From Fistulifera solaris (taxonomy: Eukaryota > Bacillariophyta > Bacillariophyceae > Naviculales > Stauroneidaceae), in contig AP026142.1 in the NCBI GenBank assembly GCA_030295235.1, forward strand, positions 62,001 through 126,000: a stretch of DNA of 64,000 nt. Reading direction: 5' to 3'. Below the pieces are notes generated by a model. The model saw nothing but the letters and a program-made list of their open reading frames with translations, made no database searches and had not been told where the DNA came from. Every line of letters begins with the position of its first letter. Position 1 is the first letter of the stretch. This document shows, piece by piece, positions 21,889-64,000 of the stretch. Both the position numbers and the translations under genes were made by a program.

Positions 21889-22443
21889 ATGACAATGGAT
21901 AGTAAAAGAATTGTCATCCATGTGGATGTAGGAGGAACGCTGTATAAGGTATCGCGTCAGACCCTCCAACAGCACAGAGATTCTCTGCTCGCGCGCCTCG
22001 TGTCGAATACTTGCGAAGGAGAAAAGGCGGATGAACCCATTTTTATTGATCGCAACGGTCGCTTGTTTGAGTATATCCTTGATTACTTAAGAACGGAGCG
22101 GGTATACCTACCGTTCTCTGTGAGCCGGGATGCAATAAAGGAAGAATTTGTATTCTACGGGATTGGCGTGGATATGAGGAAAGTGCATCGAACTACTGAT
22201 ACTGCGGACTTGGAAATGCTTGATGCGAAAACTGAAGCAATTCGAGTTCAAAGACTTGTTCATCGGACGATGGTTGTTATTGAACGTGAATTCATGAAAC
22301 AGGGGTATTATCCTTGCAGCCCAACGATACTGCTACCACAGGCAGAATTCTTGCAGCTTTCTGAACATGAAGCTTTGCTTCAAGAGCAATTACTCAAAAG
22401 AGGTATGAAGCTTGTCAATCTGAGAATGGGAAGTTGGCGGTAA
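21889..22443 (+). CDS. BTB/T1 (KCTD-like) protein 1
   Basis: 184 residues from the ATG at 21889. The N-terminal domain is a T1-type BTB fold as in KCTD proteins and voltage-gated potassium channels: VDVGGTLYKVSRQTL, then DEPIFIDRNGRLFEYILDYLR and VYLPFSVS. An EEFVFYGIGVDM helix follows. The rest is a helical linker and a C-terminal LLQEQLLKRGMKLVNL motif that recurs across this family. No membrane span, so it is not a channel. KCTD-type domains form oligomers and often bind CUL3 (family knowledge); its role here is unknown. It stands apart from the main array, 7 kb upstream, and belongs to the short subfamily (PIFIDRNG, FYGI). Confidence 0.85.
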   Translation: MTMDSKRIVIHVDVGGTLYKVSRQTLQQHRDSLLARLVSNTCEGEKADEPIFIDRNGRLFEYILDYLRTERVYLPFSVSRDAIKEEFVFYGIGVDMRKVHRTTDTADLEMLDAKTEAIRVQRLVHRTMVVIEREFMKQGYYPCSPTILLPQAEFLQLSEHEALLQEQLLKRGMKLVNLRMGSWR

Positions 22444-23459
22444 ATTGCCGCCATACATCCAAGTAAAGAGAGCATAAACTGATGGTGCTGGTCTCAAGGA
22501 AACATAAAACTTGCCCAAAGGCGAAAGATTTGATTTGTTACATTATGGTGTACTCCGAATCTACGAGGCAACATAGTTACTAGTACTAATACCTCTCTTG
22601 ATTTTAGGTCTCGCATTCAATTCGTTCGGTGCAGGTTTCATGTATCATCTAAGAAGTCGCATGAATCTGTTTAACGCAAAAAGCTAGTGTTTATCCGCTG
22701 AATTTGGGTCACATCTCGACACCTTGCTCGACACATCAAAAATAGCTCAACGCGTGACGAAAACCTTCAACACGGACTATCGCCCCCACCTCATCATGAT
22801 CGCGCGCCTTGCGAACATTTTCATTATTTTATTCGCCCTGTATTCAGGTGAAAAGACGGAGGACCGGAATGGCAAAAGGGGCGGTGACGTTTGTTCGCAG
22901 AGGAACGAACGAAATTTATTCATACCTGCATTGATCTGCAAGCTTTTTTTTCAGTTGTAGATCCATAGCTCACAACTCTAGTTTTCAAAGGGTTTGTAAA
23001 AAAACGGAGTAGAGATTTTGTTTCATGACTGAAATTCAGTAGTCACGCAAAAGGTCGCCTGCAGTATGGCCTATAGTCATGCTACAAAATGCGGCTAAGT
23101 CGCCAAGTCGGGAAGCATTTTTGATGCAATTTCATCGAACATGCGTTGCAAGCGAGCAAGCAATGAATATAATATCATCATTGCGAGGAACGGTAACAAA
23201 GTTTTTGATTCAACCTTTTTGAGCCTTGAAGGAAATCCGGTCTTGTCGAGGTTCGGTACTCGGTACGGTACCGTACCCTTTTCCGTACGACAGACAAGCA
23301 AGCGTTCCGCATCGCCATCAACATAATAAACATGGAAGGCAAAAATAATAAAGAAGAAATCGTTCAGAGTTGCTAGGAATAATTCTTTGAAATTGTCGTT
23401 CTTTTTTGTCAATCTTATTTTCTATGCACTCCGTTTAAAAAATTCAGTTGACGAGAAGG
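22444..23459. other. Intergenic region with a 16-bp GTAC palindrome
   Basis: No gene supported in about 1 kb. The perfect palindrome GGTACGGTACCGTACC lies at 23262-23277, next to GTTCGGTACTC. Confidence 0.5.
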
Positions 23460-23677
23460 ATGAATCGGTTATCAGTTTTATCTTGTGTAGCTTGGCTGAT
23501 ACTCTTTCAAAAACTACCACAATGTACAAATTCCTTATCGACATCACCCAAAGTTACCATTAGTAATAAACGCGTCGTCAAATCCGCCGCCATTCATCGG
23601 AACGAACGTCGCAAGAATCCTGCCTTGTGGCGTCTCGAACATGTCGACGACAAAGAGACTACAACTGCTGTAACCTT

Positions 23678-23708
<31 letters not shown>

Positions 23709-27456: not shown

Positions 27457-27626
27457 CCTATTCGAAATAACAGTAAAAAGACTCGCAATTGTGTGTCCTT
27501 GGAACAAACACAAAAAATACAGTGGCGATGTACGCGCAACAGACGGACGCTACAGTCTGATGCGATGCGATGATGACGTCTCACAATACTTGATCAATAC
27601 CGCTTTAATGTAGCGGAAACGAGAAA

Positions 27627-27765
27627 GCCTGCGTATCAACGACGTGTTTTGTGGGAGTCTTTCACGCTTTCACGTTTATTTGAAGAAACGCCACGTCAAT
27701 TTGCAGTCAATTTGCAGCATAGTCTCCCAAAATGACGCAAAACAAACGCATACCGCCCGTCGTCA
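27627..27765. repeat. Fold-back intergenic element, copy A
   Basis: Starts with GAAAGCCTGCGTATCAACG, continues through TTTCACGTTTATTTGAAGAAACGCCACGTCAA and ends in AGTCTCCCAAAATGACGC. The TGGGAGTCT at its left pairs (one mismatch) with AGTCTCCCA at its right. A BTB gene fragment begins immediately after it. Confidence 0.7.
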
Positions 27766-27986
27766 ACATTGTCGCTTTGAAAGACGAGTTTATGTACTAC
27801 GGGATCTCGGCGAATTGGGATAAATCGATTGTCAAGAATGTCGCCGATGATGACATGAAGGTTCAGAGCACTAGCGGCACCATCATCAAGTCATTCACTT
27901 TGGCTATGATTGGATGGAAGGTGGTCGGACTATTCGCAATCATGTATCGGAATTTCAATTCTGCTCGGGTGCTTCACAACAAGTAA
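27732..27986 (+). pseudogene. BTB gene fragment fused to element A
   Basis: The frame starts in the AAAATGACGC end of element A and continues as VVNIVALKDEFMYYGISANWDK. This matches the segment just after the BTB core of the intact genes (NIEAVKEEFEFYGIDADM in the gene at 36401). No BTB core precedes it. The rest (SIVKNVADDDMK, then a hydrophobic segment) matches nothing I can name. It is a breakpoint relic: the 5' half of a BTB gene is gone and the repeat takes its place. Confidence 0.6.
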
Positions 27987-29514
27987 TAAGTCGCTGGTGT
28001 GTGTGGATCGGAGCAATTGACATTCGTCGTAGACGTAACGTGAATAGAAAATGTGATTGAATGTCGTCGTAGACGGAACACAGCACTCATTTTCGCCATT
28101 GGTATCCAGTTGTGTTTAACGCATTCATTTAGATTGTTTTATTGCGTGCTGATGAATGTTGAAAGCTGGATGGATTAGACATTGCACGGGACTCAGCTGC
28201 ATTTTGGTCGAGTGAGAAGGAGGCGTCCGTCGTCTCAAACTTTCCTCGGTGATGCGGTACACATTAATTACGTCACTCACAGGGTGTATACAAGAAGAAG
28301 TAAACGAAAAGGAAAGCGTCCGTCTCATCGCGTCAGTTTGTGTGAGGCTTTCTCATTTTCAACGTTTTCAAGGAAACGCCACGTAAAATGAGACGAAAGT
28401 CTCCCAAAATGACGCAAAAGCTGAGAAAACTTGGACACCATGTGAGACAACGCCACGCGAGCGCGAAAATTCATGCCACATGTCACATGTGACATGTTAG
28501 AGCCAAGTGACAACTCTCATTATTATCGCGAAACAAGCTACTACTACGAAATACTATGAGTTGTGCGTTAAAGGATTGGTTTGCGAGATGCCATTCACTT
28601 CACCAGTCTACGTGGATATCGACAGATCAACATAGGATGTGAAAGAAAGGTTGAGTCCTTTATTGTTCGGACTTTTATCTGAAACTCTCTTGCGTTCTAG
28701 AAAATAGGTATCCTGTGCATTCTCTCTCTGTGGCGAGAACGGCTCGACGAAACCCTTTTTGATACCCATGGATTTGGACCGTTGATGACATCTTACGACA
28801 GCATAGTCTGCCTTTCCGCTTCTCTTTGCAATAATGACACAATTTATTTCTCGTCCGCACCGTAAACGAGAATGGCGATCAATGATGCCCGAAATATGAT
28901 CTCCGGAACCAGGTGCTGTATGCGGATGGCTCTCGCCGTTAAGTGGCTCTAAGTCATTTTATGTCATCTAGTGTGCCTGTATTTGGTGGAGCGTTCTACT
29001 ACCAGCGTGCTTTTGAATTCGGGAGTTGTTTGTTTTGTTACCTTTACCATTATCAGTGGATGGTTACGTTGAGCAGCAGACGCAAAAGGGCACAAAAGTT
29101 AGGCGGTCTGAATCGGTTTAAAGTAAAAGTAATAGCATAACATCCCACCATTAAACGAATGATATTGAAAAAGCCGTTGAATGAATCATCAAGAACACCA
29201 TCACAACTGATCTAGGAAAACGCTTTCGAAAACCCTATCTGGAGTCTCTAGTCTCTAGAGAGGTCGATCACCATGTGCCCGTGCGGCTGCAGTACAAAAC
29301 ACACGTGACCTGTCAATTGCATCCCACGTCACGGACCAACTCGAAGAACAAGACCAACAGATGCTGTCGTGCCAAAAACTCCACCCCCGCGTGTCGTGCG
29401 CCTTTTCGCCGCAGGGTAGTGAGCGCACCTCTTCATCGCTTTTTGCTCACCCTGCCTTTCACGAACCCTGTCGCATTCGAATTGATATATTATAAACATT
29501 CTTAAAGCAACAAC
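27987..29514. other. Intergenic region containing element B
   Basis: About 1.5 kb without a supported gene. Element B (28309-28475) lies inside. The rest shows no domain-like frames. Confidence 0.4.
28309..28475. repeat. Fold-back intergenic element, copy B
   Basis: Contains GAGGCTTTCTC, then AACGTTTTCAAGGAAACGCCACGTAAAATGAGACGAAAGTCTCCC, in which GAGGCTTTC pairs with GAAAGTCTC (one G-T). A second block (GGACACCATGTGAGACAACGCCACGCGAG) follows as in copy D. Confidence 0.8.
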
Positions 29515-30180
29515 ATGACCATAATGAGTTGTCAGGAGAGAGGCAAAATTGTTCGACTGAACGTAGGAGGTACTCGATACGATGTCTCGCGCACTACACT
29601 CGAACGTTGCGAAGGATCGATGCTGAACAGCTTGATTTCGGAATACTGGAAAGAAGGCAATTCCGATGAACCGATTTTCATTGATCGCAATGGTCGTTTG
29701 TTCGAATATGTGCTGGATTATTTACGAACGGCCAAAGTGTATTTGCCATCTTCCGTCAGTTTACTCGCCTTGGAAGAAGAATTCGATTTTTACGGATTGG
29801 ATGTAGATATGACCAAAGTGCACTGCATGGATGCCAGCATGGGTTCGTTGAATGCATTGTACGAAAGTCATTACTTGTTGGGACTCGCGGATCAAATATC
29901 GGCCGAAGCCTACACGACCGCGGCCCGGCGGGCCGTCGAAAAGAGTTTACGGAAAAGTGACATTGCGCCCAAACCCTCCCGCGAAATACCCTTCTTTATT
30001 CTGGTGGAATGTTACAAGCGCAATCCGACACCGGGGGCATCGTTTTGTGTTTACATCCCCGAAGAATATCAGCCCCATATGGATACCGATTTGGTGAACA
30101 ATATTTTGACCAATCGGGGCTTTGAAATTGTGAATTCAGCCTTTAAGCACTTCTTGTACATTAAGAAGGTTTCTGAATGA
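29515..30180 (+). CDS. BTB/T1 (KCTD-like) protein 2
   Basis: 221 residues. The T1-type BTB domain is textbook: LNVGGTRYDVSRTTLERCEGSML, DEPIFIDRNGRLFEYVLDYLR, VYLPSSVS, EEEFDFYGLDVDM. The helical middle holds a SAEAYTTAARRAVEKSLRKS segment. The C-terminal part has VYIPEEYQPHMDTD and a divergent family C-terminal motif (LVNNILTNRGFEIVN). It belongs to the short subfamily with the genes at 21889, 36401 and 39635 (shared IPEEY and DRNGRLFE). An ATG at 29515 is followed closely by a second at 29524; the first keeps the longest N-terminus. No break. Confidence 0.88.
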   Translation: MTIMSCQERGKIVRLNVGGTRYDVSRTTLERCEGSMLNSLISEYWKEGNSDEPIFIDRNGRLFEYVLDYLRTAKVYLPSSVSLLALEEEFDFYGLDVDMTKVHCMDASMGSLNALYESHYLLGLADQISAEAYTTAARRAVEKSLRKSDIAPKPSREIPFFILVECYKRNPTPGASFCVYIPEEYQPHMDTDLVNNILTNRGFEIVNSAFKHFLYIKKVSE

Positions 30181-30797: not shown

Positions 30798-31493
30798 ATG
30801 ATTTGTCTAAATGTGGGAGGCATTCGCTATCAAGTCTCTCGTGAGACATTAACGCGATACGAAGGATCCTTACTTGCCACTTACGCCAACAGTTGGAATG
30901 AGAATACATTCAACCAAGAGATTTTTATTTTCCGCGACGGGCATTTATTTGCTTACGTCTTGGATTATCTGCAATCCGGAAAAGTTCATTGGCCTTCGTC
31001 AGTCATTCAAATGAAGCTAAAACAGGAACTGGATTACTATGGAATTCCGGTGGATGCGAGCAAAATTGTGGAAGAAAAGGACTACTTTATTATTGATCGA
31101 TTGACGAAAGAGATCAAAGAACACAAGGCTGCTATCGAAGAAAAGGAGAGACAAGTAGTTGCGATCGTGGAGTCGTATCGTCTGACGCATCAGTATGCAG
31201 AAATCGTCTCAAAGAGCAGCGGTAATGGTTTTTCTACACACTCGTTCCCTGTGACGGGAAATTTTGACAAGAAATTGCTGCAGGAAAGCTTGCTTTCCCG
31301 CGGACTCGATGCCTACTTTTATCAGAACGCGAAGCAGGGAGCAAAGGTTATACTAGGTCCTATTACAGAAGAGGATAAGAGAATCTATGGCGAGAAACGC
31401 ACCGGCTTTCAGTTTACATTTCATGACAACACAACGACACCCCTTGCTTCCGCAGCCATCAGACGTCGGATCGTGAGATCGAAGAAGCGCTAA
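30798..31493 (+). CDS. BTB/T1 (KCTD-like) protein 3
   Basis: 231 residues, starting directly at the BTB core (MICLNVGGIRYQVSRETLTRYEGS). Its closest relative in the window is the gene at 32191. That gene has an extra 66-residue N-terminus, which here is cut off by a TAG just upstream, so this copy has a shortened N-terminus. Other features are IFIFRDGHLFAYVLDYLQ, ELDYYGIPVDASKI, a coiled coil (TKEIKEHKAAIEEKERQVVAI) and the C-terminal LLQESLLSRGLDAYFY motif. A Lys/Arg-rich tail ends the protein (RRRIVRSKKR), which could serve as a nuclear signal (inference). Long subfamily. Confidence 0.85.
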   Translation: MICLNVGGIRYQVSRETLTRYEGSLLATYANSWNENTFNQEIFIFRDGHLFAYVLDYLQSGKVHWPSSVIQMKLKQELDYYGIPVDASKIVEEKDYFIIDRLTKEIKEHKAAIEEKERQVVAIVESYRLTHQYAEIVSKSSGNGFSTHSFPVTGNFDKKLLQESLLSRGLDAYFYQNAKQGAKVILGPITEEDKRIYGEKRTGFQFTFHDNTTTPLASAAIRRRIVRSKKR

Positions 31494-32190
31494 TTTTAAG
31501 CCTTAGGTCGAGTCTCAATTGTTGGTCTCTTACACGTCTTACCTGGTAGCTCTTAGCTAGAAAACAAAAAGATAACGAGCGAATTTTCGCTAGCGTGTCG
31601 AACCTTGAAGGCGCGGCACTCAACGTCAATGCAGCTGTTTAGCGGTAATCAGCTTCATTTCATCTTAGAATAATCAAGGTTGGGTATTTTGAAATATAGC
31701 TACTTTATAATGAAAATTCAAGCTTGCTAGTTAGTCTATAAACCTCAGTTTTTTCCTTTACACTCCTCGTGACTCATGAACGACCGTCAATCACGCAAAG
31801 AAATGAGGAAAGGAAAAACTGTTGCGTCAAGCGGTACTCATCAAGAGGCAGTATACTATAAACTGTCTCCAATTCAAGAAAGCCTGCGTGTATTTCAAGT
31901 CATTTTGTGTGACGCTTTCTCGCTTTCGACGTTTTCGAAGAAACGCCACGTAAAATGGAGGAAAGGCTCGCAAAATGACACGCGAAAAGCGAAAGACGTG
32001 ACAAAATGGCGGACAAGAGAGACGAAATTTGGGTCACGCAAGCAATGCAACAAAACCAAAAGGCCTCTCATCCTTCACGTCAATAATAATTCATTCTATG
32101 ATTGTTGCTTTTGCTTGAACATTCAGTTGATCCGTTGCTCAATCAAAATATATTGACATTCATTTACTGACCTTTTCGCATGTATTAACC
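31494..32190. other. Intergenic region containing element C
   Basis: Element C (31877-32000) sits about 200 bp before the next BTB start. No other feature is supported. Confidence 0.45.
31877..32000. repeat. Fold-back intergenic element, copy C
   Basis: GAAAGCCTGCGTGTATTTC, then GACGCTTTCTCGCTTTCGACGTTTTCGAAGAAACGCCACGTAAAATGG and a divergent right arm (GGAAAGGCTCGCAAAATGAC). The inner CGTTTTC/GAAACG pair is kept; the outer arm has diverged. Confidence 0.75.
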
Positions 32191-33036
32191 ATGGCAGATG
32201 CTCGCATCAAGAAAACACGATTGTCGTTGGACGATGACCTCAATGAAGACTTCGAAAACCTCACTGTCGAAGAAACAAAGGACGACACAAAAGTATATTC
32301 TTTCACATTCGGGGAAAAGAAGGAAGCAAAGGATGACCAGCCTCCTCCCACGAACACTCCGACGGCTTTTAATCGCGATATAATTTGCTTGAATGTTGGA
32401 GGAATCCGTTATGAAGTCTCTCGAACGACGATGACGCAATACGAAGGATCCGTTTTAGCTAGTCTCGCCAAGACGTGGAACGAAGAAAAAATTAACAGTG
32501 AGATCTTTGTGTTCCGTGACGGGCCTTTGTTTGCTTACGTTTTGGATTATCTGCGATCGGACAAAGTGTACTTACCGTATTCGATTACGCGGGCTGCGCT
32601 ACAAGAAGAATTCGATCACTTTCAGATTCCTGCGGACATGGGAAAGGTTTATGTCGAAAAAGATTACTTTACTATTGATCGACTGACGAAAGAGATCAAA
32701 GAACACAAGGAAGCTATTGAAGAGAAGGAGAGGGCTGTCTCCGCCATCATTGAATCCTATCGTCTTGCGCACAATCTTACGGCCTCTGTCATGAAACACG
32801 GATTTGATTGGTCCCAGGTGGTGACACCTAGCTTTACTGTCACCCCGGGCATCGACAAGAAACTATTGCGCGATTGTTTGTTGGTGCAAGGAGTCGAAGT
32901 GTATGGGTACCGAATGGAAAATTTTGAAGCGCGCATTTCATTGGGGCCCATTCAAGAAGATGACGGAGGAACTCCCTGCAAAGGTGCTTACCGTCAGACG
33001 GCCACTGGATCGCCATTTCGCTTTTTTGATCCATAA
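32191..33036 (+). CDS. BTB/T1 (KCTD-like) protein 4 with N-terminal extension
   Basis: 281 residues. An acidic and Lys-rich N-terminal extension of about 66 residues precedes the BTB domain (ICLNVGGIRYEVSRTTMTQYEGS; IFVFRDGPLFAYVLDYLR; VYLPYSIT). Then follow EEFDHFQIPADMGKV, the coiled-coil segment TKEIKEHKEAIEEKERAVSAIIESYRLA, and the C-terminal LLRDCLLVQGVEVYGY motif. The extension reads MADARIKKTRLSLDDDLNEDFENL and looks unstructured. The downstream C-terminal tail is longer than in the other members. It is the longest intact member of the array; no frame break. Confidence 0.88.
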   Translation: MADARIKKTRLSLDDDLNEDFENLTVEETKDDTKVYSFTFGEKKEAKDDQPPPTNTPTAFNRDIICLNVGGIRYEVSRTTMTQYEGSVLASLAKTWNEEKINSEIFVFRDGPLFAYVLDYLRSDKVYLPYSITRAALQEEFDHFQIPADMGKVYVEKDYFTIDRLTKEIKEHKEAIEEKERAVSAIIESYRLAHNLTASVMKHGFDWSQVVTPSFTVTPGIDKKLLRDCLLVQGVEVYGYRMENFEARISLGPIQEDDGGTPCKGAYRQTATGSPFRFFDP

Positions 33037-33774: not shown

Positions 33775-34509
33775 ATGACAATGACCGCAAATGAAACTCT
33801 TTTTTCAGAACAAGCTACTGAGATTCCTTCCGCTACAGCAAGCGAAACCAAGAGCCAGTCGAATGATACACCGAAAGCCAAGCCGACAACTCCACGCTGT
33901 GCTAGCTCGCGAGGAATCGTCCGTCTAAACGTAGGAGGCTCCCGCTACGAAGTTTCCCGCAACACTTTGACGCGTTACGAAGGATCCATGCTGGCCAGTC
34001 TTATTTCCGGCAAATGGAAGGAAGGAGAAGGCGATGAAGAAATCTTTATCGATCGCGACGGCCGTCGCTTCGGGTACATCTTGGAATATTTGCGTTCTGA
34101 CCGTGTGCATCTACCGCACTTGTCGGCCCGGTCTGCCTTGATGGAAGAGTTTGAGTATTTCGGAATTGATGCCGACGAGAGCAAGATTCTCGTCCAGCAC
34201 GACTTTATGTGTATCGATCAACTCAAGAAAGAAATCATCGTTCACCAAGCTGCCATCGCCGAGAAGGAAAGGGAAGTGGCAGCCATTTTGGAATCCTACC
34301 GCATGGCCAAGGAATTTTCCGAGTACGTCAAAACATGGGGATTGAATCTCATGATGCAGATTTCAGTCCAGAAAACTGTCGATCGAGAGATGCTTCGTGA
34401 ATGCTTGCTATCGCGGGGACTCAAGGTGGAGAACTACAATGTGAAAGAAGATGGAACAGTCATTGCCCATCTTGTTTCGCTGGGTATGTCTAGTCGTGCC
34501 AATAAGTAG
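33775..34509 (+). CDS. BTB/T1 (KCTD-like) protein 5
   Basis: 244 residues. A Ser/Thr/Pro-rich N-terminal extension of about 42 residues leads into IVRLNVGGSRYEVSRNTLTRYEGSML, EIFIDRDGRRFGYILEYLR, VHLPHLS and EEFEYFGIDADESKI. The coiled-coil part is KKEIIVHQAAIAEKEREVAAILESYRMA and the C-terminal motif is MLRECLLSRGLKVENY. A short basic tail ends it. It is closest to the genes at 38172, 51738 and 63439 (shared GKWKEGEGDEEIF and RSDRV). No frame break. Confidence 0.88.
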   Translation: MTMTANETLFSEQATEIPSATASETKSQSNDTPKAKPTTPRCASSRGIVRLNVGGSRYEVSRNTLTRYEGSMLASLISGKWKEGEGDEEIFIDRDGRRFGYILEYLRSDRVHLPHLSARSALMEEFEYFGIDADESKILVQHDFMCIDQLKKEIIVHQAAIAEKEREVAAILESYRMAKEFSEYVKTWGLNLMMQISVQKTVDREMLRECLLSRGLKVENYNVKEDGTVIAHLVSLGMSSRANK

Positions 34510-34711: not shown

Positions 34712-35118
34712 TAAAAAAACGATACGATATGATGTTTCTCACAACACCCTCGAACGCTGGGAGGGCACGATGCTGGCATGCATGATTTCGGAACCTTCGC
34801 GAGATCGCTTCTCCGAAAAACGAATAAACCTGTCCTTCGAAAATGGTGGTGACTCGCTTGAGTAAGACAACGCACCCATTTCATTGATCGCAATGGATTA
34901 CTGTTTCAGTACGTCCTCGATTATTTCACAGTGAAGTTTACTTGCCATCGATTGTGAGTCAAGAGATGCTGTTGTGAAGGAGTTCGATTTTTATGCAATC
35001 GATTGACCTGAGCAGTAGATTGTTTTGAGTATGTTCTTGAGTATCTGAGATCAAATGAGGTCTACTTGCCGTCCTCTGTAGACCGATCCGCTGTGGAAAA
35101 AGAATTTGCGTTTTAAAT
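34712..35118 (+). pseudogene. BTB/T1 pseudogene with a partial internal repeat
   Basis: Frames change several times, yet BTB segments are readable in order: RYD, VSHNTLERWEGTMLACMISE, then after a gap PIFIDRNG-like and LLFQYVLDYF, then KEFDFYAID followed by stops. Beginning near 35026, a second partial copy reads FEYVLEYLRSNEVYLPSSVDRSAVEKEFAF, ended by TAA. The losses include deletions and substitutions outside homopolymers, so this is real decay and not an assembly artefact. It resembles the short subfamily. Confidence 0.75.
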
Positions 35119-36400
35119 AACATTCATGGAAAAGCTCGGTCCAAAGTTTGTTCAATACCTTGTCTCGAAAATTGCATCCACAAAAAGAGACATGCACTTG
35201 CTCATGGCCAAACAAACTTGCCACTGAAACAGCAACTTTTGTTGAATTCATTTTCATTTATTACACGGAGTAATAATAGCTCTATCCATTTGTCGTAAAA
35301 GGACGCATTTACAGCTGCAAGGTGCGGGAAAAGCCCCCGTAGAGAAATGTACCAAGCAGAGGTGCGTTCCCGTGTCTCCCAGTTGTTGTCGACCGCGCCC
35401 ATTGTGGAGGGCAAAGCGGTACTCATTGATTACGCCACACACGTGTTCTATACAGGGAAAAGTGGGCAAAAGGAACGCCCCCGTCTCATCGCGTCAATTT
35501 GTGTGAGACTTTCTCATTTTCGACGTTTTCAAAGAAACGCCACGTACAATGGGACGAAAGTCTCTCAAAATGACGCCGCAAACAAACGAGAACTCGGACA
35601 CCATGAGGCAACACCACGCGAGCTCTCTCGTCCGCATGTCCGTATAAGTATGTGACAGAAACAGAATGCCATGTTATCGTGATGGTGAGGCACAAACATG
35701 CTTTCAATGCATTATAAAGCAAGTTCCTGAGCAGCGAGACGAGGCCTCCGCTCCATCACGTTATCTCTGCAATGTCAACCTATCAAAAAGTGGGTTGAAG
35801 TTCGGCAATGCTTCCCTTCGCTGCATTGTAAACATAAACCATCACGAAAGCTTCCGCCGAGTGTTTCTATCATCACACCTCCACAAAAGACTCGCTTATC
35901 ATCTGTGCGTGAATAGAGCAAAGATCGTATGCTACATCAAAACGACTGTGTGAACGCCGTATAAACCTAACAATCCGACGCCTCTTCTAATATGGCATCC
36001 TCGAAATCATCATTCAATAGCGACTTCTTTATAATACACGCGACGACTACTGAACGTTCCATATCGCCATCAAGCGGAAAAAACAAGCTGCAACCAGCAA
36101 AACTGCGGCAATGAATCACGTGACATTGAGAAAGTTTGCGCGTTTTTCTACACAAGTCGTCGCACGAATCGTATCTTACCATTCTTCCGTGATGTTCCGA
36201 AGCGCTATAAGTGTCACAAATCTTTCCTCGTCACGAAAAGTACAGTCCGCGGTATTCGCCACTTTCAAATGCGGAGGTGACTTGGAACGGTTCGCAATAA
36301 AGAAACAACTCGGATTATTTTTTTTGTTTCACCGAGCGCAACAAGATTCCTGGCATTATTACTTGCAACGTGCTCTCGCAATACGAATCTCTCCTTAACA
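35119..36400. other. Intergenic region containing element D
   Basis: About 1.3 kb. Element D is at 35464-35625. No gene is supported in the rest. Confidence 0.45.
35464..35625. repeat. Fold-back intergenic element, copy D (best preserved)
   Basis: Outer arms GAGACTTTC (35505-35513) and GAAAGTCTC (35556-35564) are a perfect 9-bp inverted repeat. Inner CGTTTTC (35524-35530) and GAAACG (35534-35539) pair with one bulge. GCCACGT lies between them. A second block, GGACACCATGAGGCAACACCACGCGAG, follows. Confidence 0.85.
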
Positions 36401-37024
36401 ATGACGACGGAAGAAACCAAACCCACAATTGTTCAGCTCGATGTGGGAGGCACGCTTTACAAAGTATCACGTGACACAATCGAGCGTTGCGAGGGATCCA
36501 TGCTGGCCAGTTTAATATCTGATCAATGGAAAGAAGGCAATACCGACGAACCGATTTTTATTGACCGCAATGGTCGTTTGTTTGAGCATGTTCTGGACTA
36601 TTTGCGCGCGAGCAAAGTGTATTTGCCTTCGACGGTGAACATCGAGGCCGTGAAAGAGGAGTTTGAGTTTTATGGGATCGATGCCGACATGGGGGAAGTT
36701 CACGAAAAGTACGGTCACAAGTATTTACATGAGCTCAATGAAAGGATTCGTGTCCAAGAAGAGAGCTTGTACGCGTTAAAGGCGGAAGCCCATGCGATTC
36801 AGGCTTCGATGATGGTGGAACATGAATTTTTCAAAGAACATGAGACTCCCTACATTCCAATTCCCGAAGAATATCGACCAAAGCGTCACACGCGGTGCAT
36901 TGATTTGCCGGAAGAGTATAGACCGTTTGACAAAGAAACGCTGCGAACTTGCCTGCAACAGAGAGGTTTTAAACTGAATCGAGCGGATCGAGACTATGTT
37001 TCAGTTGAGGATATGGAAAGCTAG
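36401..37024 (+). CDS. BTB/T1 (KCTD-like) protein 6
   Basis: 207 residues. BTB core LDVGGTLYKVSRDTIERCEGSML, DEPIFIDRNGRLFEHVLDYLR, VYLPSTVN, and EEFEFYGIDADMGEVH. The middle is a helical stretch with YLHELNERIRVQEESLYALKAEA. Near the end are two IPEEYRP/LPEEYRP repeats and the C-terminal LRTCLQQRGFKLNRAD motif. It is a short-subfamily member. No break, and the ATG at 36401 is the only reasonable start. Confidence 0.88.
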   Translation: MTTEETKPTIVQLDVGGTLYKVSRDTIERCEGSMLASLISDQWKEGNTDEPIFIDRNGRLFEHVLDYLRASKVYLPSTVNIEAVKEEFEFYGIDADMGEVHEKYGHKYLHELNERIRVQEESLYALKAEAHAIQASMMVEHEFFKEHETPYIPIPEEYRPKRHTRCIDLPEEYRPFDKETLRTCLQQRGFKLNRADRDYVSVEDMES

Positions 37025-51130: not shown

Positions 51131-51164
51131 TATCAGCACTAATTGTACCCATAAGGCTGCATAC

Positions 51165-51310
51165 TACGTATCATCAACGTGTTTTGTAAAAGTCTTTCTC
51201 GATTATGACGTTTGGAAAGAAACGCCACGCAAATGTCGGAAGACAGTCACCCAAAATAATGACATTCGAAAGGAAAGAAACGATGATGGCAAAAGAGAAA
51301 CGCCACGTTA
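51165..51310. repeat. Fold-back intergenic element, copy H
   Basis: TATCATCAACGTGTTTTG, then AAGTCTTTCTCGATTATGACGTTTGGAAAGAAACGCCACGCAAATG and AGTCACCCAAAATAATGACA, then a second GAAACGCCACG. Confidence 0.75.
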
Positions 51311-51737: not shown

Positions 51738-52457
51738 ATGACGGACGGTGTTTCACTTGTTCAGCAAGGTAACACCCTTAAAACCGACGCTCAGAAGCAA
51801 GCCGATGAGTTTGCTTCATCATCTACGACGAAACCACGAGTCAACGCACGGACCGATATCGTTCATTTGAATGTAGGAGGTACACGCTATGAAGTATCGC
51901 GAAGCACTTTGATGCACTACGAAGGATCGATGCTGGCCAGTCTTATTTCCGGCAAATGGAAAGAAGGAGAGGGCGATGTAGAAATCTTTATCGATCGCAA
52001 TGGTCGGCGTTTTGAATGGGTATTGGACTACTTACGATCGGATCGAGCCTATGTGCCCGATCTATCGGATCAATTGGCACTCAAAGAGGAGCTGGATTAT
52101 TTTGGTATCGCTGTCGATATGAGCAAAGTCTCCGTGACGGACGACTTTGTGACGATCAACGAGCTTAGTCAAGAGATCAAGGTACACAAAGCAACTATTG
52201 CGCAAAAAGAAAAGAGAATAGCCGCCATCAAGGAGTCGTACCGTTTGGCCGGTGAATTTGCTGATTACTCGGAAAATGAAAAGCTGAAAGTTCGTTTGAG
52301 TGTCAACAAGGACGTCGATACAAAGATGCTCCGTCGCTGCTTGTTATCTCGTGGATTGCACGTTCTACGATCCGGTAGCAAAGAATCCGGTGCGCCAACA
52401 TTATATTTATGCGTTGCCGGACAAAAAAGTAAATGTGTCACCAAGCTTACAAAGTAA
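51738..52457 (+). CDS. BTB/T1 (KCTD-like) protein 9
   Basis: 239 residues. After a Ser/Thr/Lys-rich extension of about 37 residues comes IVHLNVGGTRYEVSRSTLMHYEGSML, EIFIDRNGRRFEWVLDYLR, YVPDLS, EELDYFGIAVDMSKVS. The coiled coil is INELSQEIKVHKATIAQKEKRIAAIKESYRLA. The C-terminal motif is MLRRCLLSRGLHVLR. This is the cleanest long-subfamily member and a good reference for the frame of the gene at 38172. It lies just right of the copia element, with element H upstream. No break. Confidence 0.9.
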   Translation: MTDGVSLVQQGNTLKTDAQKQADEFASSSTTKPRVNARTDIVHLNVGGTRYEVSRSTLMHYEGSMLASLISGKWKEGEGDVEIFIDRNGRRFEWVLDYLRSDRAYVPDLSDQLALKEELDYFGIAVDMSKVSVTDDFVTINELSQEIKVHKATIAQKEKRIAAIKESYRLAGEFADYSENEKLKVRLSVNKDVDTKMLRRCLLSRGLHVLRSGSKESGAPTLYLCVAGQKSKCVTKLTK

Positions 52458-53829
52458 AATCGACTTTTTTGCACGCAATATTGTGCCAGGTCAGCTTCTG
52501 CATTCTCCAAGACAAAGACACATCTGTAAGGCGTTTACTCCTGATGTAATCTTTGTATGATCTTCCGATTTGGGTAAGAAAATTCACGTCAAACCCCGTA
52601 TTCATCAGACAGCGAATCTCTGTTTGTCTCCGTGTTTCTATTAGTATGAAATTATTGATGATATGAAACTTAGAATTTGCGTTTTAATAATAGCCACTGT
52701 AGCAATTCGTGACAAACAAGGTTGAAACACAGATTTCTCCCAAAAAAGGTACTCGTTCCTTCAATTTGTCTGTATAGTACGTTTTCGGTATAACTGAGGA
52801 AAGGTTGCGTATTATTAACGTGTTTCGTGTGAAAACTTTCTCGTTTTTCGAGGTTTTCAAGGAAACGCCACGTAAAATGGGACGAAAGTCTTCCAAATAC
52901 AAACGAGAACTCGGACACTGTGAGAAAATGCCACGTGAGCCCTATCCGCATGTGACGAACACGTAAAACGACATTATTTTTTTTACTCTTCATATCGGTC
53001 ATCCTTTTCATACGCCGGAAATACAGAACAACTAACCGATCAATCGACACAAATAAGCGGAGCGAACTTTACGGGACGATTCACGGCAAGTAGCAATCAT
53101 GTCGACGGAGTTGGTTGATTTCGCTTTCAATGAAATGGAGAGGAAGGGACAGCGACGAAACGTTTGGACTCATACACGGCAACCAACAAGCTCGCTGCGC
53201 TGAATACGACATGGATTTGTTTCGACATATGCTCCATTGTGTGCCTTCGGTTCGCCGAGCCGTAATGGAAGAAAAGGTGGGTGCCTTGGGTGTTGTTGGA
53301 TATCGAGGAAAAGAGATGGCCGTATCTCACGTTCAGTCGACCGAAGAAGACCAGGGTTTGCTTCGTGTTGAAAAGTTGTCATTTTGAAACGCGATTGTGA
53401 CGAATAGGAATCTAAACAAAGGGGCATGGTTAAGTCGCGAGTCAAGATCTTCCTATCGACAGATCTGCAATAATGCGCATCTTGAACTGTGCCTGGATAT
53501 ACTGCGCAACCATTTACGTGCCTCAGCTTCAGAATACTTCGCAAATCGATCGCCAAAGTAGTGGTGAATTTTGAAAATGCCACGTAAAAACCTGCAGACA
53601 GTGGTAAAGTCTAACACCTATCAATCAAGCACTGAAATGTCTTACCTAGTTCGAATAGTGTAGAATCTATTTTCCACGATTGGGTTTTAGTCATGAGGTG
53701 AGAACGCAACACAGACGCGACGACCGACGACGCAGTGATGCGGATCGCATTTCATTTTACCAACGCACAGCAAGATTATTACTGGTGCTATAGACACCCA
53801 ACGCAGCATTCGACACTGAAACAAATACA
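52458..53829. other. Intergenic region containing element I
   Basis: Element I lies at 52800-52945. An open frame at 53115-53387 has no recognisable motif and is not accepted. A GAAAATGCCACGTAAAAAC near 53571 is a fragment of the same element. Confidence 0.4.
52800..52945. repeat. Fold-back intergenic element, copy I
   Basis: AAAGGTTGCGTATTATTAACG, then AACTTTCTCGTTTTTCGAGGTTTTCAAGGAAACGCCACGTAAAATGGGACGAAAGTCTTCC, then a second block GAGAACTCGGACACTGTGAGAAAATGCCACGTGAG. Confidence 0.82.
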
Positions 53830-55740
53830 ATGAAGAGAAGCATTGAAGACCTTTCTCCAACGACGACTCGAGAAAACGCGTCGCTGCTGTCTCTTCACGA
53901 CGACGCGCTCATGACAGTTTTGCTGCGCACACGAGCCAGCGACCATGCGAATTTGAGACGCTCCTGCAAGCGCATTCGAGATATGATCGACTCGTTTCAA
54001 TTTCGAAAGGAGAGAGGTGTGCAAGGTTTTGCGGAAGTTGACGTCGACTTGCTCTCTGGTTTTGAACAGTATCAGCTGTCGAAGAAATCGTTAGGGGAAC
54101 ATCCTCCCAGTGAGGAAGATGATAGTTTCTATGCGCAGTACGATACGCTTGGATACATATATGAATACGGCGACTACTCATTCGAAACAGATTGTTTTCG
54201 TGTGTTTGTAGATGGCCGTCCGCTGCACAAGCTTCGCAGAAGGGAAGAATTCAATTTGCATGTACGGCTTTTGCCACTCTGTGCCCCATTTTGGGAACTA
54301 TGTGATTGCTACAACCAAACCCTCTGCGATCTGGGAACTTTGTTATTTACCAATAAAGGCAAGCCAAAGGTTGCATCGATCAAGAACGCACTTACTTGCG
54401 ATGACTTTTGTGCTTCGCACAATCTTTTGTACATTCAGGACTTTGTGCTTCCTTTTGAGTACCGATTTATTGAGTCAACCGTTGGGCCTTTGCTCATCAA
54501 GGGAGTCCTGAAGCTTTTTTTAGACTTTTACTCAATAACCATGCGTTCAGTATAGAGACACAATTCACCGTGAGAGGAAGCCGATGCTGAGAGAAACACA
54601 CGCTTTCGTTTCCCGACCGAAGAAAAGACGGATGAAGATATCCAAGCCGAAGAAGAGCGGCAAATCCGTAATGATCGTTGTAAGCACCAAGATATGCGGC
54701 AGTTCTTTAGGGCCGGATTTCAACAAGTAAATGACCAATTAGTTGTAGAGAAGTCGGACTACAGCTATGTTTTCGCAATTCCTGAAGTTACTGGCGAGCC
54801 GATCTTATCGCTAGAAGAAACGTTGAAAATACCTATTGCACGCCATGTGACCAGAGCCAAGAGGTTTAGCAAGGGAATTTTGGCTTCTCGTTGGAAAGCA
54901 AATCTCGCGAATGGAATGTCATGACCGAAGAGCTAAAAGATCTACGCATACCTCCCCCTCGAAAAGCCTTTGTTCGCCCAAATGATTGATGACTTTAACG
55001 GCAATGTGCAACAGCTAAAAGATCAAGAAGACGGGCTCAGTAATTCTATACAGGAGCGTGCACAGATGGATAAAGACGTTAGCACACTGGAGGAAAGTAG
55101 AGAGATTGTGCGCATCGCGTCGTGACCTAGAAGAGAAGATCAACACGTTGTGTACTACATTGCAAAGCCGGATTTGCTGAAGCGTTAAATCGAAAGGAGG
55201 CAGAAATGAAAACTTGGCAGGATAAAGCTCGAAAAGACTTAAAGACTGTACTTGAAAAGGCGGAAAATACCCTGCAACTGTTTTATGAATCGGATGCGAT
55301 TCATGTTGCTGCAGCTGGGAAGAATTTGGACCTACTCTTGATGCTGCTTGAATTCGTTCCAGACTCTGACAGGCCAATGGCGGTGAACGCACTTGATCGT
55401 TTAGGGCTAACACCTCTTATGGTATTGGCAACCATCGCGCCCTAGTGCTGGTTTGACCAAATGTCGACAGACAATGGAGGCTGTGATCAACATGGGCTGA
55501 CACGGTATTGTTCATTCTATTAATGGTTTATCAGCTTGGACACTTTCAGCGACAGTCATGAGCAAGAAGAAAGGCACCGAATCCTCTTTGGCTTACCAGA
55601 GCCCTCAGTGGAACTCAAAGAAGAAGTTGTGTCGGATTGAAGCGCTTTTACGCCCTGCCGACGGTCCAACTGCCGCAGACGAAGCTATATTGGAAACAAG
55701 GAAAGATGCGGATTCAAATGACGGCGAATCTGACTACTGA
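53830..55740 (+). pseudogene. F-box/ankyrin gene, copy 1 (broken)
   Basis: The first 241 codons (to 54555) are intact: an F-box-like N-terminus (LSLHDDALMTVLLRTRASDHANLRRSCKRIRDMIDS, residues 20-56), then a middle domain with FRVFVDGRPLHKL and LLPLCAPFWELCDCYNQTL. A stop at 54553-54555 ends this frame. Downstream are disjoint pieces matching copy 2: RQFFRAGFQQVND, NTLQLFYESDAIHVAAAGKNLDLLLMLLEFVP (ankyrin) and IEALLRPADGPTAADEA, in three frames with stops between them, some outside homopolymers. The break pattern is heavier than in copy 2. The truncated F-box part could still be made. Confidence 0.7.
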
Positions 55741-56032: not shown

Positions 56033-57944
56033 ATGAATAGAAGCATTGAAGACCTTTCTCCAACGACGACTCAAGAAAACGCGTCGTTGCTGTCTCTTCA
56101 CGACGACGCGCTCATGACAGTTTTGCTGCGCACACGAGCCAGCGACCATGCGAATTTGAGACGCTCCTGCAAGCGCATTCGTGATATGATCGACTCGTTT
56201 CAATTTCGAAAGGAGAGAGGTGTGCAAGGTTTCGCGGAAGTTGACGTCGACTTGCTCTCTGGTTATGAGCAATATCAACAGTCGAAGATGGGAGAGGATC
56301 CTTCTAGTGACGACGACGAAAGTCTCGGTAGAAATTACGACGAACTTGGCTACATTTGCGAGTACAATGATTACTCATTCGAGACGGATTGCTTTCGAGT
56401 TTATGTGGATGGCCGCCCGTTGCATAAAATCGAGAAACGGGAAGAGTTTAAAATGCATGTACGGCTGTTGCCGCTTTGTGCCCCATTTTGGGAACTAAGT
56501 GATTGCTACAATCAAACCCTCTACGATCTGGGAACCTCATTATTTACGGACAAAGGCAAGCCCACGGTGGTATCGATCAAGAACGCACTAAATTGCGATG
56601 ACTTTAGTGCTTCGCAAAATCTTTTGTATATTCAGGACTTTGTGCTTCCTTTCGAGTACCGGTTTATTGAGTCCACCGTGGGACCTTGGCTTATCAGAAT
56701 AATCCTGCAGCTCTTCCAACACTTATACACGGTCAGCATGTACGTTCCGTATAGAGAGACGCCAATTTACAAAAGTGGAAGCTGAAGCCGAGAAAGGCCA
56801 ACGTTTCGTCTTCGCCGATGAAAAGACGGATGCAGATCTCCAAGCTGAAGAAGAGCGTCAAGTGCGAAATGAACTTTTTGAGCACCAAGATATGCGACAG
56901 TTCTTTAGGGCTGGGTTCCATCAGGTAAACGACCGGTCAATCGTAGAGACGTCTGGCTACAGCTATGTTTTTGCAATACCTCAAGTCATGAACCAGCCGA
57001 TTCTATCGTTAGAGGAAGCTATGAAAATACCTATTGCACGCCAAAACGCCCACGCGACCAGAACCAAGAGGCTTGGCAAGGGATCTTTGGCTTCTCGTGA
57101 AACGGCAAACCATTGAATGGAATGATATGATCAAAAAATCAGACGATCTACGCGTTCCATTTATTGAAAAGCCTTTTTCGCTAGAAGATATAATGAGGTC
57201 AAAGAGGATGTGCAACAGCTGAAAGATCAAGAGGACGAGATTAACATATCTATACAGCAGCGTAATCGGGAGGGTAGGGACGCTGGCGAACTGGAGGAGC
57301 TTAGGGAAAAAGTGCGTGTAGAGCGTTTCGAGCTTGAAGAGAACACCGATGAGGTCTGTCGTATATTGCAAGATGCACATGAGAAGGCGTTGGGTGAAAT
57401 GGAGGCCAAATTTAAAACTTGGCGGGAGGAACATCGAATTGAAGTAAAGGCTATCATTGAGAAGTCGAAAAATCCCCTGCAACTATTTTGCGACTCCGAT
57501 GCGATTCATATTGCCGCAGCTGGGAAGAATTTGCAGCTAGTGCGATTACTTCTCGACTTTGTACCAGGGGCTGACAAAGCAAAGGTTATGAACGCACTTG
57601 ATCGCACAGGCCTAACTCCTCTTATGGTATTGGCAGACGTCGCACCTAGTACTAATTTGATCGAATGTCGACAAACAATGGAGACTTTTATCAATATGGG
57701 AGCAGATACAAATGCTGCTCATGCTATTAACGGTCTATCCGCATTTGGACACTTTCGCGACAGCAATAAGCGAGCGGAGAGGTCTCGCATCCTTTGGGGC
57801 TATCCAGAACTGTCCGTGGAACTCAAAGAAGAAGTTTCTCGAATTGAGGCGCTTCTACGCCCTGCCGATGGCCCAACCCCTGCTGACGAAGCTATATTTG
57901 AAACGAAGGAGTCAGATTCGGATGACGACGAATCTGATTACTGA
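56033..57944 (+). CDS. F-box/ankyrin protein, copy 2 (best preserved, frame breaks)
   Basis: An N-terminal F-box-like region (LSLHDDALMTVLLRTRASDH, SCKRIRDMID) with the same middle domain as copy 1. After frame changes near 56770 there is an acidic helical segment (DADLQAEEERQVRNEL, RQFFRAGFHQVND), then after further changes near 57110 and 57200 a coiled coil (ELEELREKVRVERFELEENTDE) and two or more ankyrin repeats (DAIHIAAAGKNLQLVRLLLDFVP, NALDRTGLTPLMVLADVAP, GADTNAAHAINGLSAF). The end is acidic. A missing C in the GACGCCAATTT near 56760 would account for the first change. F-box proteins recruit substrates to SCF ubiquitin ligases, with ankyrin repeats as the likely substrate-binding part (family knowledge). 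About 630 residues. Confidence 0.72.
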
Positions 57945-62740: not shown

Positions 62741-63438
62741 TCGAAACAATCCCATCATCCATCTGCTGTAGTGACATTGGTCGTTGCAAGGACCACGCGG
62801 CCTGCAACGACATTTGCTTGTACTGGTACGTTTTGAGCTGACATGATGAGGTTTCTGTTGGTTATGGTAGTAACAATTCTTGGAATAAAAGGCTGTAATT
62901 GTCATTTGCACCATTGTTGTGGGCTCAGCTGTGGGTGCTTTTGCGGTTCGGATTTTTGCCAAGTAAGAACTTGTCACTCCTGTAGAAAAGCTACCAGCCA
63001 AAATTTGTCCGGCAATTGTCTCAAGTTTGCCGACGATTGATTCTCTACAAAAAGACACGTTGCACTTGTACGAAAAATGATCTGAAGATGTTTTACCATT
63101 ATCGACGATTGCCGGACAAGCGGTCCGCAAACAGACGGGTACGTATGTAGAAAGTCTACTAGAAACAAGTTGAGTAGCGCACCGCGACCCAATTTGTCCG
63201 GCATTTGTCAATTAACCTTCGTTCATCTATCTGACATATTTGGTACCGCTACGCTACATAGACGCGCTGTAGATAAGCTCTGAAAAATCATGCCGACAAA
63301 CCAAAAAACGGATAAGACGCGAAAAGTCCGCTTTCGTTTGTTCGTTGACGTAGATACGAGTTTGCGGGAAACGAACATAAATGTTCACAACAATTATTCA
63401 TTCCCTTTTATATCTTTGCCTTGCAAAAACGAGTATCT
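62741..63438. other. Region between the recombinase and the last BTB gene
   Basis: No gene supported. It holds three copies of a 16-bp motif (63005, 63104, 63194) listed separately. Confidence 0.4.
63005..63209. repeat. Three copies of a 16-bp motif upstream of the recombinase gene
   Basis: TTGTCCGGCAATTGTC at 63005-63020, its near-perfect inverse GACGATTGCCGGACAA at 63104-63119 (15 of 16 match), and TTGTCCGGCATTTGTC at 63194-63209 (one mismatch to the first). They lie beyond the N-terminal end of the tyrosine-recombinase gene. Confidence 0.75.
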
Positions 63439-64000
63439 ATGTCGAGTTCACAAGACGAAACCTCTCCGATGAAACGCCATAAAGTCGCTAAAAGCGATGC
63501 GGGAGGTACGAAAACAAGCAATGCTTCTCCTAAATCGTATCTCGCCAATGCCAGTTCACCCACCGGCGTATCAGCTCCAATCGTTCAGCTGAATGTAGGA
63601 GGTACACTTTACAAAGTATCACTCGACACGCTGATGCGATTTGAGGATTCGATGCTAGCAAATCTCGTTTCGGGAAAGTGGAAAGAAGGTAAAGGTGACG
63701 ACGAAATCTTTATTGATCGCAATGGCCGACGTTTCGAATGGGTACTTGATTACTTGCGCTCGGATCGAGTGTATGTACCATCTTTATCTGATCAATCTGC
63801 ATTGAAAGATGAGTTTGACTTTTTCGGTATCGATGCTGATATGAGCAAAGTTTCGGTCATGGACGACTATTCTTCAATTAAGCAACTTACGAAAGAGATC
63901 AAGGAGCATAAAGGGATCATTGAGCATAAAAAGAAGAAGATAGCTGCCATGAAAGAGTCGTATAAGCTGGCTGGAAGATTTGCGAATGCTGTAGACCGTC
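63439..64000 (+). CDS. BTB/T1 (KCTD-like) protein 10 (runs off the window)
   Basis: Starts at the ATG at 63439 and is open to the window end (187 codons). The N-terminal extension holds a basic stretch (PMKRHKVAK) that could act as a nuclear signal (inference). The BTB core is IVQLNVGGTLYKVSLDTLMRFEDSML, EIFIDRNGRRFEWVLDYLR, VYVPSLS, DEFDFFGIDADMSKVS; here the usual VSR is VSL and EGSML is EDSML. The coiled-coil region is QLTKEIKEHKGIIEHKKKKIAAMKESYKLA. The C-terminal motif lies outside the window. It is closest to the gene at 51738. No break. Confidence 0.88.
   Translation, partial: MSSSQDETSPMKRHKVAKSDAGGTKTSNASPKSYLANASSPTGVSAPIVQLNVGGTLYKVSLDTLMRFEDSMLANLVSGKWKEGKGDDEIFIDRNGRRFEWVLDYLRSDRVYVPSLSDQSALKDEFDFFGIDADMSKVSVMDDYSSIKQLTKEIKEHKGIIEHKKKKIAAMKESYKLAGRFANAVDR

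Follow-up and report, generated by a model that had tools for sequence, protein, structure and literature searches.

Expansions of adaptor families are usually described in animals, plants and intracellular bacteria, and a row of BTB genes in a unicellular alga raises the question of what these genes encode, how they came to stand together and what they may do. The locus lies in a stretch of 64,000 nucleotides, here called the window, from Fistulifera solaris, a hybrid (allodiploid) diatom; its features are given in Table 1.

The BTB array and its homoeologous counterpart

All ten ORFs assigned to the array by the first-pass annotation matched the T1-type BTB core (PF02214) over the cut-off, with E-values from 1.9e-13 to 1.1e-19, and all lie on the + strand, which agrees with that annotation. 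The array ORFs encode about 184–281 aa; for 63439 the full frame was taken from the DNA adjoining the window. Besides PF02214, only BTB_3 was over the Pfam cut-off, on three of the ten window genes. Peak 19-residue hydropathy stayed below 1.25 in 33 of the 34 array ORFs, the exception (1.7) being the frameshifted 38172 ORF, consistent with the earlier statement that none has a membrane span. The window was also searched by tblastn with the array proteins, and five further + strand BTB fragments were found (22833–22916 being marginal), where at least four had been announced. Pattern matches to homologues occurred in five stretches of prokaryote genomes and 37 of viral contigs, none of them confirmed.

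A genome-wide BTB_2 scan gave 53 matches (matches rather than genes, some genes being split in two): ten in the window array, 36 in an array on the homoeologous contig C32, which retains more members, and seven elsewhere. All ten window genes have collinear reciprocal-best partners on C32, and all ten pairs are sisters in an unrooted tree of 35 rows. In nine pairs dN/dS was 0.02–0.28, against 0.04–0.36 in alignments of neighbouring genes between the two contigs; most retained members are under purifying selection. The collinear partners and these ratios show an old array that is mostly maintained by purifying selection and is no assembly artefact. Two single-base frameshifts were found, one in 38172 and one in the C32 homoeolog of 32191. 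Since the window fragments match collinear C32 loci, the copy difference reflects, at least partly, loss in the window. The family was most likely shaped by birth and death, its members being lost to different extents in the two parental-genome lineages.

Table 1 Features of the BTB array in the window (C32, homoeologous contig; element identities are to the homoeologous copy, followed by those of the two flanks)
Feature	Position	Strand	Evidence
BTB gene, short subfamily, 184 aa	21889..22443	+	PF02214 9.1e-18; homoeolog C32_90908, dN/dS 0.28
BTB fragment, marginal; relic matching C32 gene 92722	22833..22916	+	tblastn E 0.001; blastn C32 93228-93365, 77%
Element by BTB fragment	27626..27749	+	
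BTB fragment	27735..27896	+	tblastn; C32 103561-103641, 88%
Element upstream of 29515	28316..28459	+	
BTB gene, short subfamily	29515..30180	+	PF02214 1.1e-19; dN/dS 0.07
BTB gene, long subfamily	30798..31493	+	PF02214 4.7e-17; dN/dS 0.26 at dS 1.3; partner less certain (96/70)
Element upstream of 32191	31881..31995	+	89%; flanks 68/72%
BTB gene, long subfamily	32191..33036	+	PF02214 1.9e-13; C32 homoeolog cut off by frameshift
BTB gene, long subfamily	33775..34509	+	PF02214 2e-18; dN/dS 0.12
BTB fragment	34722..35215	+	tblastn 1.2e-15; C32 114155-114437 and 115433-115546
Element upstream of 36401	35477..35620	+	79%; flanks 44/58%
BTB gene, short subfamily	36401..37024	+	PF02214 2.9e-18; dN/dS 0.02
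BTB fragment, C-terminal part	37200..37343	+	tblastn; C32 match
Element upstream of 38172	37559..37677	+	84%; flanks 40/60%
BTB gene, long subfamily, frameshift after core	38172..38795	+	PF02214 3.9e-17; frame intact in C32 homoeolog
Element upstream of 39635	39048..39202	+	72%; flanks 41/44%
BTB gene, short subfamily	39635..40264	+	PF02214 1.8e-15; dN/dS 0.21
BTB fragment, C-terminal part	41604..41774	+	tblastn; C32 match
Element upstream of 51738	51164..51307	+	76%; flanks 33/50%
BTB gene, long subfamily	51738..52457	+	PF02214 4.1e-16; dN/dS 0.26
Element upstream of F-box ORF 53830	52803..52937	+	75%; flanks 40/27%
F-box ORF with element	53830..54555	+	PF00646 1.3e-5, 25.4 bits (cut-off 20.5)
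Second F-box ORF, tandem copy, no element found	56033..56785	+	PF00646 1.4e-5, 25.2 bits (cut-off 20.5)
ORF with weak ankyrin-repeat matches	57210..57944	+	Ank_2 1.7e-4, below family cut-off
BTB gene, long subfamily	63439..64000, on to ~64164 past window edge	+	PF02214 1.3e-17; dN/dS 0.15

Two subfamilies and their order along the array

A single branch of the same tree, supported at 100/100, divides a short from a long subfamily, and the four short and six long window genes fall on its opposite sides exactly as they had been assigned from the sequence at first sight. The features said to mark the subfamilies fared less uniformly. PIFIDRNG is present in three of the four short genes, 39635 having SILIDRDG instead, and the C-termini, described as subfamily-specific, are less distinct than that, as a terminal ‘..LL..CL..RGL..’ module is present in both. 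Its conservation in alignment A3 partly reflects the choice of rows, because the 23 C-terminal rows were picked for showing it. The module had no match in PDB sequences or Pfam, either with C-terminal profiles or among the families listed for the 23 C-terminal parts.

Seven homoeolog pairs were pooled (30798 is saturated, 32191 truncated and 38172 frameshifted, and these were set aside): the core had 85.5 non-synonymous and 171.5 synonymous differences, the C-terminus 128.3 and 180.7 (p = 0.054), and the idea that the C-terminus evolves faster was rejected on this count. No positive selection was seen in the comparison. Individual pairs differ: the 21889 pair had a dN/dS of 0.45 in the C-terminus versus 0.12 in the core, and the 29515 pair 0.02 versus 0.09.

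The alternation of short and long genes had been taken to indicate duplication of multi-gene blocks, for which we found no support. Their order does not depart from a random one (runs test: on C32, P = 0.137 for this number of runs or fewer and 0.936 for this number or more; on the window contig C33, 0.688 and 0.601), and the tree of long genes is not concordant with that of the nearest short genes (r = −0.26, p = 0.92). Seven element-bearing upstream regions of C33, the set compared pairwise, had little in common beyond the element described below. Nor did closer relatives lie nearer to one another, the pattern expected from simple local duplication (Mantel test, p = 0.12 for long and 0.36 for short genes).

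A shared upstream element and its F-box neighbours

New here is an array-specific, non-coding element of about 112 bp located before BTB ORFs of both subfamilies and before an F-box ORF. Altogether 21 copies were identified, upstream of 14 of the 34 BTB ORFs, five fragments and two F-box ORFs (one per homoeolog); 20 BTB ORFs have none. Matches in genome-wide searches, which also missed some array copies, all fell inside the two arrays (12/12, 10/10, 3/3 and 3/3) and in one orientation only. Identity between homoeologous copies exceeded that of both flanks in six of six pairs, and presence or absence agreed in nine of the ten homoeologous BTB pairs, that of 29515 being discordant. A coding role was rejected, as no frame is open in all 21 copies (some frame is open over 115 bases in 20 of them, and copy 90316 of C33 has stops in all six), and so was a structured RNA, with no conserved pairs or consensus structure among the copies; an Rfam search of the window found nothing. 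The element is not a strong palindrome, with dyad symmetry of z > 2 in just five of 21 copies versus none of 21 flanks.

bZIP-type TGACGT/C sites occur in 19 of the 21 copies, the two F-box copies lacking them, and in both orientations in 11 of 21, compared with 170 of 19,908 background windows taken from the same two contigs outside the arrays. TGACGT/C is reported as the diatom CO2/cAMP-responsive motif targeted by PtbZIP11 (PMC11142338), and TGACGT as the aureochrome target (PMC4721966). The CO2/cAMP-responsive element of diatoms has TGACGT/C as an inverted repeat close to the promoter. The likeness lies in these sites, whereas the element is longer, has the conserved core GAAACGCCACGT and lacks the motif in its F-box copies. 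As they have one common array-specific element rich in bZIP sites, the 14 BTB ORFs and the F-box gene would probably be switched on together.

The F-box ORF 53830 has a partial homoeologous ORF on C32 (76% over 137 aa; the C32 ORF matched by similarity alone), and with 56033 it looks like a local duplicate; the 57210 ORF is possibly a later exon of an F-box gene. F-box proteins are adaptors of another cullin class, with CUL1 as the expected partner, and no cullin of the genome could be clearly assigned to CUL1.

Putative function, competing explanations and known systems

Fifty-five PDB sequences were matched at E ≤ 0.001, the best being KCTD15 (3.9e-17), followed by KCTD1, KCTD16 and SHKBP1 (5e-15), with Kv4 (1.7e-13) behind these. 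CUL3 is encoded on contig C13 (Cullin-3 3.4e-165 versus Cullin-4B, the next family, 8.8e-122), and C14 carries a near-equal, nearly full-length cullin match. Sequence comparison gave no match after the BTB core to the KCTD-CTD, an alpha/beta domain defined by fold (PMC8699099); the KCTD1 C-terminal region gave a very weak secondary match (0.9 bits), not confirmed with C-terminal profiles.

We give about even chances to the array being an old, locally duplicated birth-and-death family of soluble, KCTD-like putative CUL3 adaptors, some members of which would share their regulation with an F-box gene. In the protein plan, a linker that is helical or a coiled coil would join the T1-type BTB core to the small C-terminal module; the cores would probably form ring-like oligomers docking on CUL3, and the variable C-terminal half may pick the substrate. 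A bolder version appears quite unlikely: CO2/cAMP or blue light would act through the element as a bZIP module, KCTD-like/CUL3 and F-box/CUL1-type adaptors would form the one regulon that it switches on, and the C-terminal module would be a new substrate-recognition domain; if true, the diatom would re-programme protein degradation via a single genomic locus.

A KCTD1-like function without CUL3, as oligomeric scaffolds or transcriptional co-repressors, is rather unlikely, although KCTD15, KCTD1 and KCTD16 are the closest BTBs of known structure: KCTD1 is reported as an atypical member and transcriptional repressor (PMC7618933), and KCTD1/15 and KCTD8/12/16 as CUL3 non-binders (PMC10856315; for KCTD16 also PMC5664961). 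According to the same survey, overall BTB similarity does not predict binding or separate binders from non-binders (PMC10856315), the binder SHKBP1 (PMC5664961) is nearly as close, CUL3 is encoded and the element is common to the F-box gene. That the proteins have little function, their numbers drifting mainly non-adaptively with the element as passenger of duplicated spacers, would fit the many fragments, the two frameshifts and the strongly unequal copy numbers of the two homoeologous arrays, and non-adaptive processes have been proposed for the F-box/BTB families of Parachlamydiaceae (PMC4209131); this explanation, already weakened by low, neighbour-like dN/dS, is distinctly unlikely, as the element is better conserved than its flanks and is the main common piece of the compared upstream regions.

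The element itself might be a mobile-element remnant or gene-conversion tract rather than a cis-regulatory module. Its weak dyad symmetry and the near-identical C32 copies 102693 and 120982, whose genes are non-orthologous, point that way; its confinement to the arrays in the genome-wide searches (some array copies missed), single orientation, concordant presence or absence, and the lack of a common open frame or RNA structure speak against it, and we consider it unlikely. Collapsed or false duplicates in the assembly are next to impossible: tandem repeats can mislead assemblers and the two frameshifts could be sequencing errors, but the members differ strongly (33–52% identity to 33775 in alignment A1), and the homoeologous array is collinear and diverged, with dS well above dN.

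A unicellular alga here holds a diversified, selectively retained KCTD-like set, and because this set sits at a single homoeologous locus, its two copies give a direct record of gain, loss and selection. The element common to both BTB subfamilies and the F-box gene makes a concrete candidate regulon, and simultaneous editing of both homoeologs has been reported in F. solaris (PMC13276009).

Among known systems, KCTD proteins, with human KCTD1/15/16 nearest, usually oligomerise as pentamers, and many of them are CUL3 adaptors. They share the T1-type BTB_2 core, the lack of a membrane span and a small C-terminal part after the BTB; the array differs in its C-terminal module, unrecognisable by sequence, and in its tandem arrangement. 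The six-helix channel that follows T1 in Kv channels is missing from these ORFs of about 184–281 aa, which have no Pfam channel domain, and no MATH, BACK or kelch Pfam match, as expected of MATH-BTB or BTB-BACK-kelch proteins, was found in the ten proteins or listed for the 23 C-terminal parts. BTB/POZ and KCTD-annotated families are reported from the pennate diatoms Seminavis robusta (PMC7335047) and Antarctic Nitzschia (PMC13149256), and in Seminavis sexual reproduction elicits a response in some BTB/POZ genes, and the tandem duplicates include ubiquitin ligases (PMC7335047); excerpts of the two accounts describe no array, subfamilies or element. Many BTB paralogues in one lineage are also reported for the MATH-BTB genes of C. 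elegans (PMC1257465) and the F-box/BTB genes of Parachlamydiaceae, the latter likewise with birth and death and F-box genes (PMC4209131). Compared with these expansions, as far as excerpts of the reports describe them, the diatom array is of KCTD rather than MATH-BTB type, has an element common to both adaptor classes and occupies a single homoeologous-pair locus.

Two BTB subfamilies and their neighbouring genes

The observation of the array was right and the BTB family is real. In a Pfam domain search, all ten window ORFs matched BTB_2 far over cut-off, in agreement with the ten genes and at least four fragments of the first-pass annotation, the fragments coming to five. Across the assembly searched (51.7 Mb in 61 contigs), we have identified 53 BTB_2 matches: 36 in the array on C32 (the homoeolog of the window's contig, C33), 10 in the window array, five on C9/C10 and a lone pair outside the arrays (C32:419820 and C33:422443). 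Thirty-four ORFs, 24 on C32 and 10 on C33, scored at least 110 bits to the core HMM, and a C-terminal module was found by reading to be in frame in 24 of them (C32, 15; C33, nine). The BTB-core tree was made from 33 of these 34 array ORFs (one chimeric frame was dropped) and the lone pair. A single branch with 100/100 support divides its 15 long rows from its 20 short rows, as expected from the two subfamilies proposed previously; since the tree is unrooted, short and long represent one split, not two independent clades. The lone pair groups with the short rows.

The interleaving of the subfamilies had been attributed to duplication of multi-gene blocks, an idea that was not supported. On neither contig does the arrangement of short and long genes differ from random, the branching order of the long genes is not shared by neighbouring short genes, and the upstream regions compared share little besides one element. 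In 20 of the 21 pairs formed by seven element-bearing C33 upstream regions this element was common, otherwise only short pieces were; the longest match, of 211 bases, spans the element where 29515 and 36401 are compared (short genes, named, as others here, by start position). Duplication of BTB-gene blocks is not needed.

Further genes were recorded in and beyond the array (Table). The U32 peptidase gene is collinear on C32 and stands between the first BTB gene and the others. Within the Copia-like stretch (GC skew about -0.3), 49119-49904 (-) encodes CCHC zinc knuckle and Pol_BBD domains, and a reverse-transcriptase-like ORF was seen by eye. For the recombinase-like ORF, neither a Pfam match over cut-off nor a counterpart among the ORFs of the C32 stretch compared was found. 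Proteins of the C9/C10 family carry an N-terminal coiled coil ahead of the T1 BTB core; the longer ORFs add a C-terminal region that finishes near GKGEWTIT or a variant of it. Core matches came from four ORFs of the C9 locus.

Table. Other genes and remnants in the window array, and KCTD-like loci elsewhere
Feature	Location	Strand	Basis or content
Second KCTD-like family, outside the array	C9:1156001-1166000 (L015); C10:587001-597000 (L016); C10:1136001-1146000 (L017)		
Copia-like retroelement remnants, inside the array	window 46721-49904	-	Pfam domains and inspection by eye
ORF resembling a tyrosine recombinase	window 61612-62685	-	by reading
U32 peptidase gene, two overlapping frames	window 23448-26449	+	Peptidase_U32, DUF3656
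Leucine-rich-repeat ORF, inside the array	window 42671-44034	-	LRR in 42671-43507; homoeolog on C32

A shared upstream element

A recurrent intergenic sequence of ~112 bp with a conserved GAAACGCCACGT core is present in 21 copies, all on the + strand: 12 on C32, eight in the window and one just outside it. The element model was built from 20 of these; one copy spans two sequence stretches. The element precedes 14 of the 34 BTB ORFs (eight short, six long), five BTB fragments and one F-box ORF per homoeolog (53830 in the window), at 186-1056 bp from BTB start codons and at 893 and about 1842 bp from the F-box ORFs. Its presence or absence is concordant in nine of ten homoeologous BTB pairs, with 29515 as the exception.

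Genome-wide, one element copy retrieved 12 matches, two divergent copies three each, and the core pattern, allowing at most two mismatches, ten (reversed control, zero), all within the arrays; some known array copies were missed and these counts are lower bounds, and a diverged copy may therefore exist elsewhere. At the lone BTB pair the element was looked for and is absent. Weak partial model matches (E 0.005 and 0.09) occur at window 45629-45746 (+), with no BTB gene assigned. Two C32 copies, L003:2693-2835 (C32 102693) and L005:982-1121 (C32 120982), are nearly identical and their downstream BTB loci non-orthologous, which suggests sequence exchange between paralogous promoters.

In all six homoeologous pairs, identity is 72-89% in the element versus 27-72% in its flanks. 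Neither a consensus RNA structure nor a reading frame open in all copies was found. ACGT occurs 55 times in the copies (8.9 expected), GCCACGT in 18 of 21 copies and TGACGT/C in 19 of 21, both F-box copies being without the latter; eleven of the 21 copies carry TGACGT/C in both orientations, compared with 170 of 19,908 background windows. As the copies were found by similarity, the enrichment partly reflects shared descent. Excerpts of PMC11142338 tie a TGACGT/C inverted repeat in Phaeodactylum to PtbZIP11 and the CO2/cAMP response, and those of PMC4721966 give TGACGT as an aureochrome site. From these parallels, a candidate bZIP-type regulator acting on the element would be a reasonable guess, no more.

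Homoeologous pairs, selection and gene loss

The window covers C33:62001-126000, and the assembly contains a single, exact match to a 25-base primer published for the F. solaris apt locus (excerpts of PMC13276009), with none for the reversed primer; the species name is based on this one primer and on the pairing of contigs. F. solaris is an allodiploid diatom according to excerpts of PMC13276009 and PMC5935921, and C32 and C33 share long collinear blastn blocks, the ten top-scoring at 76-89% identity. All ten window genes have reciprocal best hits on C32 in strictly the same order and are sisters of their partners in the BTB tree (nine at the starred threshold, the 30798 pair at 96/70). NG86 estimates of dS lie at 0.41-0.70 except in the 30798 pair, where a value of 1.3 makes the partner less certain. 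For dN/dS, nine pairs fall at 0.02-0.28 and the frameshifted 38172 pair reaches 0.43; truncation of the C32 copy limits the 32191 comparison to 160 codons. Conservation is strongest in 36401 (dN 0.013 versus dS 0.62). Flanking non-array gene alignments gave dN/dS of 0.04-0.36, and F-box, ankyrin and LRR ORFs within the array 0.10-0.39, with one alignment saturated. A single-base frameshift breaks one copy in each of two pairs (window 38172, C32 111599), and sequencing error may be its source.

The best nucleotide match of all five window fragments is the collinear C32 position, two matches being weak. One falls in C32 gene 92722, another fragment matches both a broken C32 locus and gene 115116, and the remainder match C32 loci themselves broken or truncated, or DNA just past one; the smaller gene number in the window is thus at least partly due to loss. 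End branches of the 13 tree rows found only on C32 measure about 0.4-1.4; although several of these rows are truncated ORFs, such lengths suggest that most of them arose before the two parental genomes separated.

KCTD likeness and other diatoms

Among PDB sequences, the closest to the array BTB cores are KCTD15 (3.9e-17), KCTD1, KCTD16 and SHKBP1, followed by a kelch protein and Kv4. The array proteins are likely KCTD-like adaptors, a class already known. Most human KCTDs form pentamers, and CUL3 binding is common among them but not universal (excerpts of PMC10856315 and PMC5664961). The genome encodes a clear CUL3 (C13), and C14 gave a cullin match that is near-equal and nearly full-length. 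A CUL4-like cullin (C24) has its partner on C23; the third pair, C21/C22, matches no cullin family clearly, and the fourth, C5/C6, is weak. Given the KCTD likeness and the encoded CUL3, the array proteins could plausibly serve as CUL3 adaptors, the C-terminal half selecting substrates; an argument against this is that the KCTDs closest in sequence are reported not to bind CUL3. For the region after the core, which the first-pass annotation proposed to compare with domain models, relatives of the C-terminal module were sought in Pfam and PDB sequences and none was detectable.

Within this known class, the novelty lies in a conserved array of two subfamilies with an array-specific upstream element that is common to both and is found ahead of an F-box gene as well. 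Among open-licence PMC titles and abstract beginnings for diatom with KCTD, Fistulifera with BTB, and diatom with cullin, F-box and BTB, neither array nor element was found. KCTD-annotated proteins are contracted in a polar Nitzschia (excerpts of PMC13149256). For Seminavis robusta, excerpts of PMC7335047 describe BTB/POZ families whose members react to sexual reproduction, and list such families among the genes showing signs of positive selection, in contrast to the purifying selection observed in the F. solaris array.
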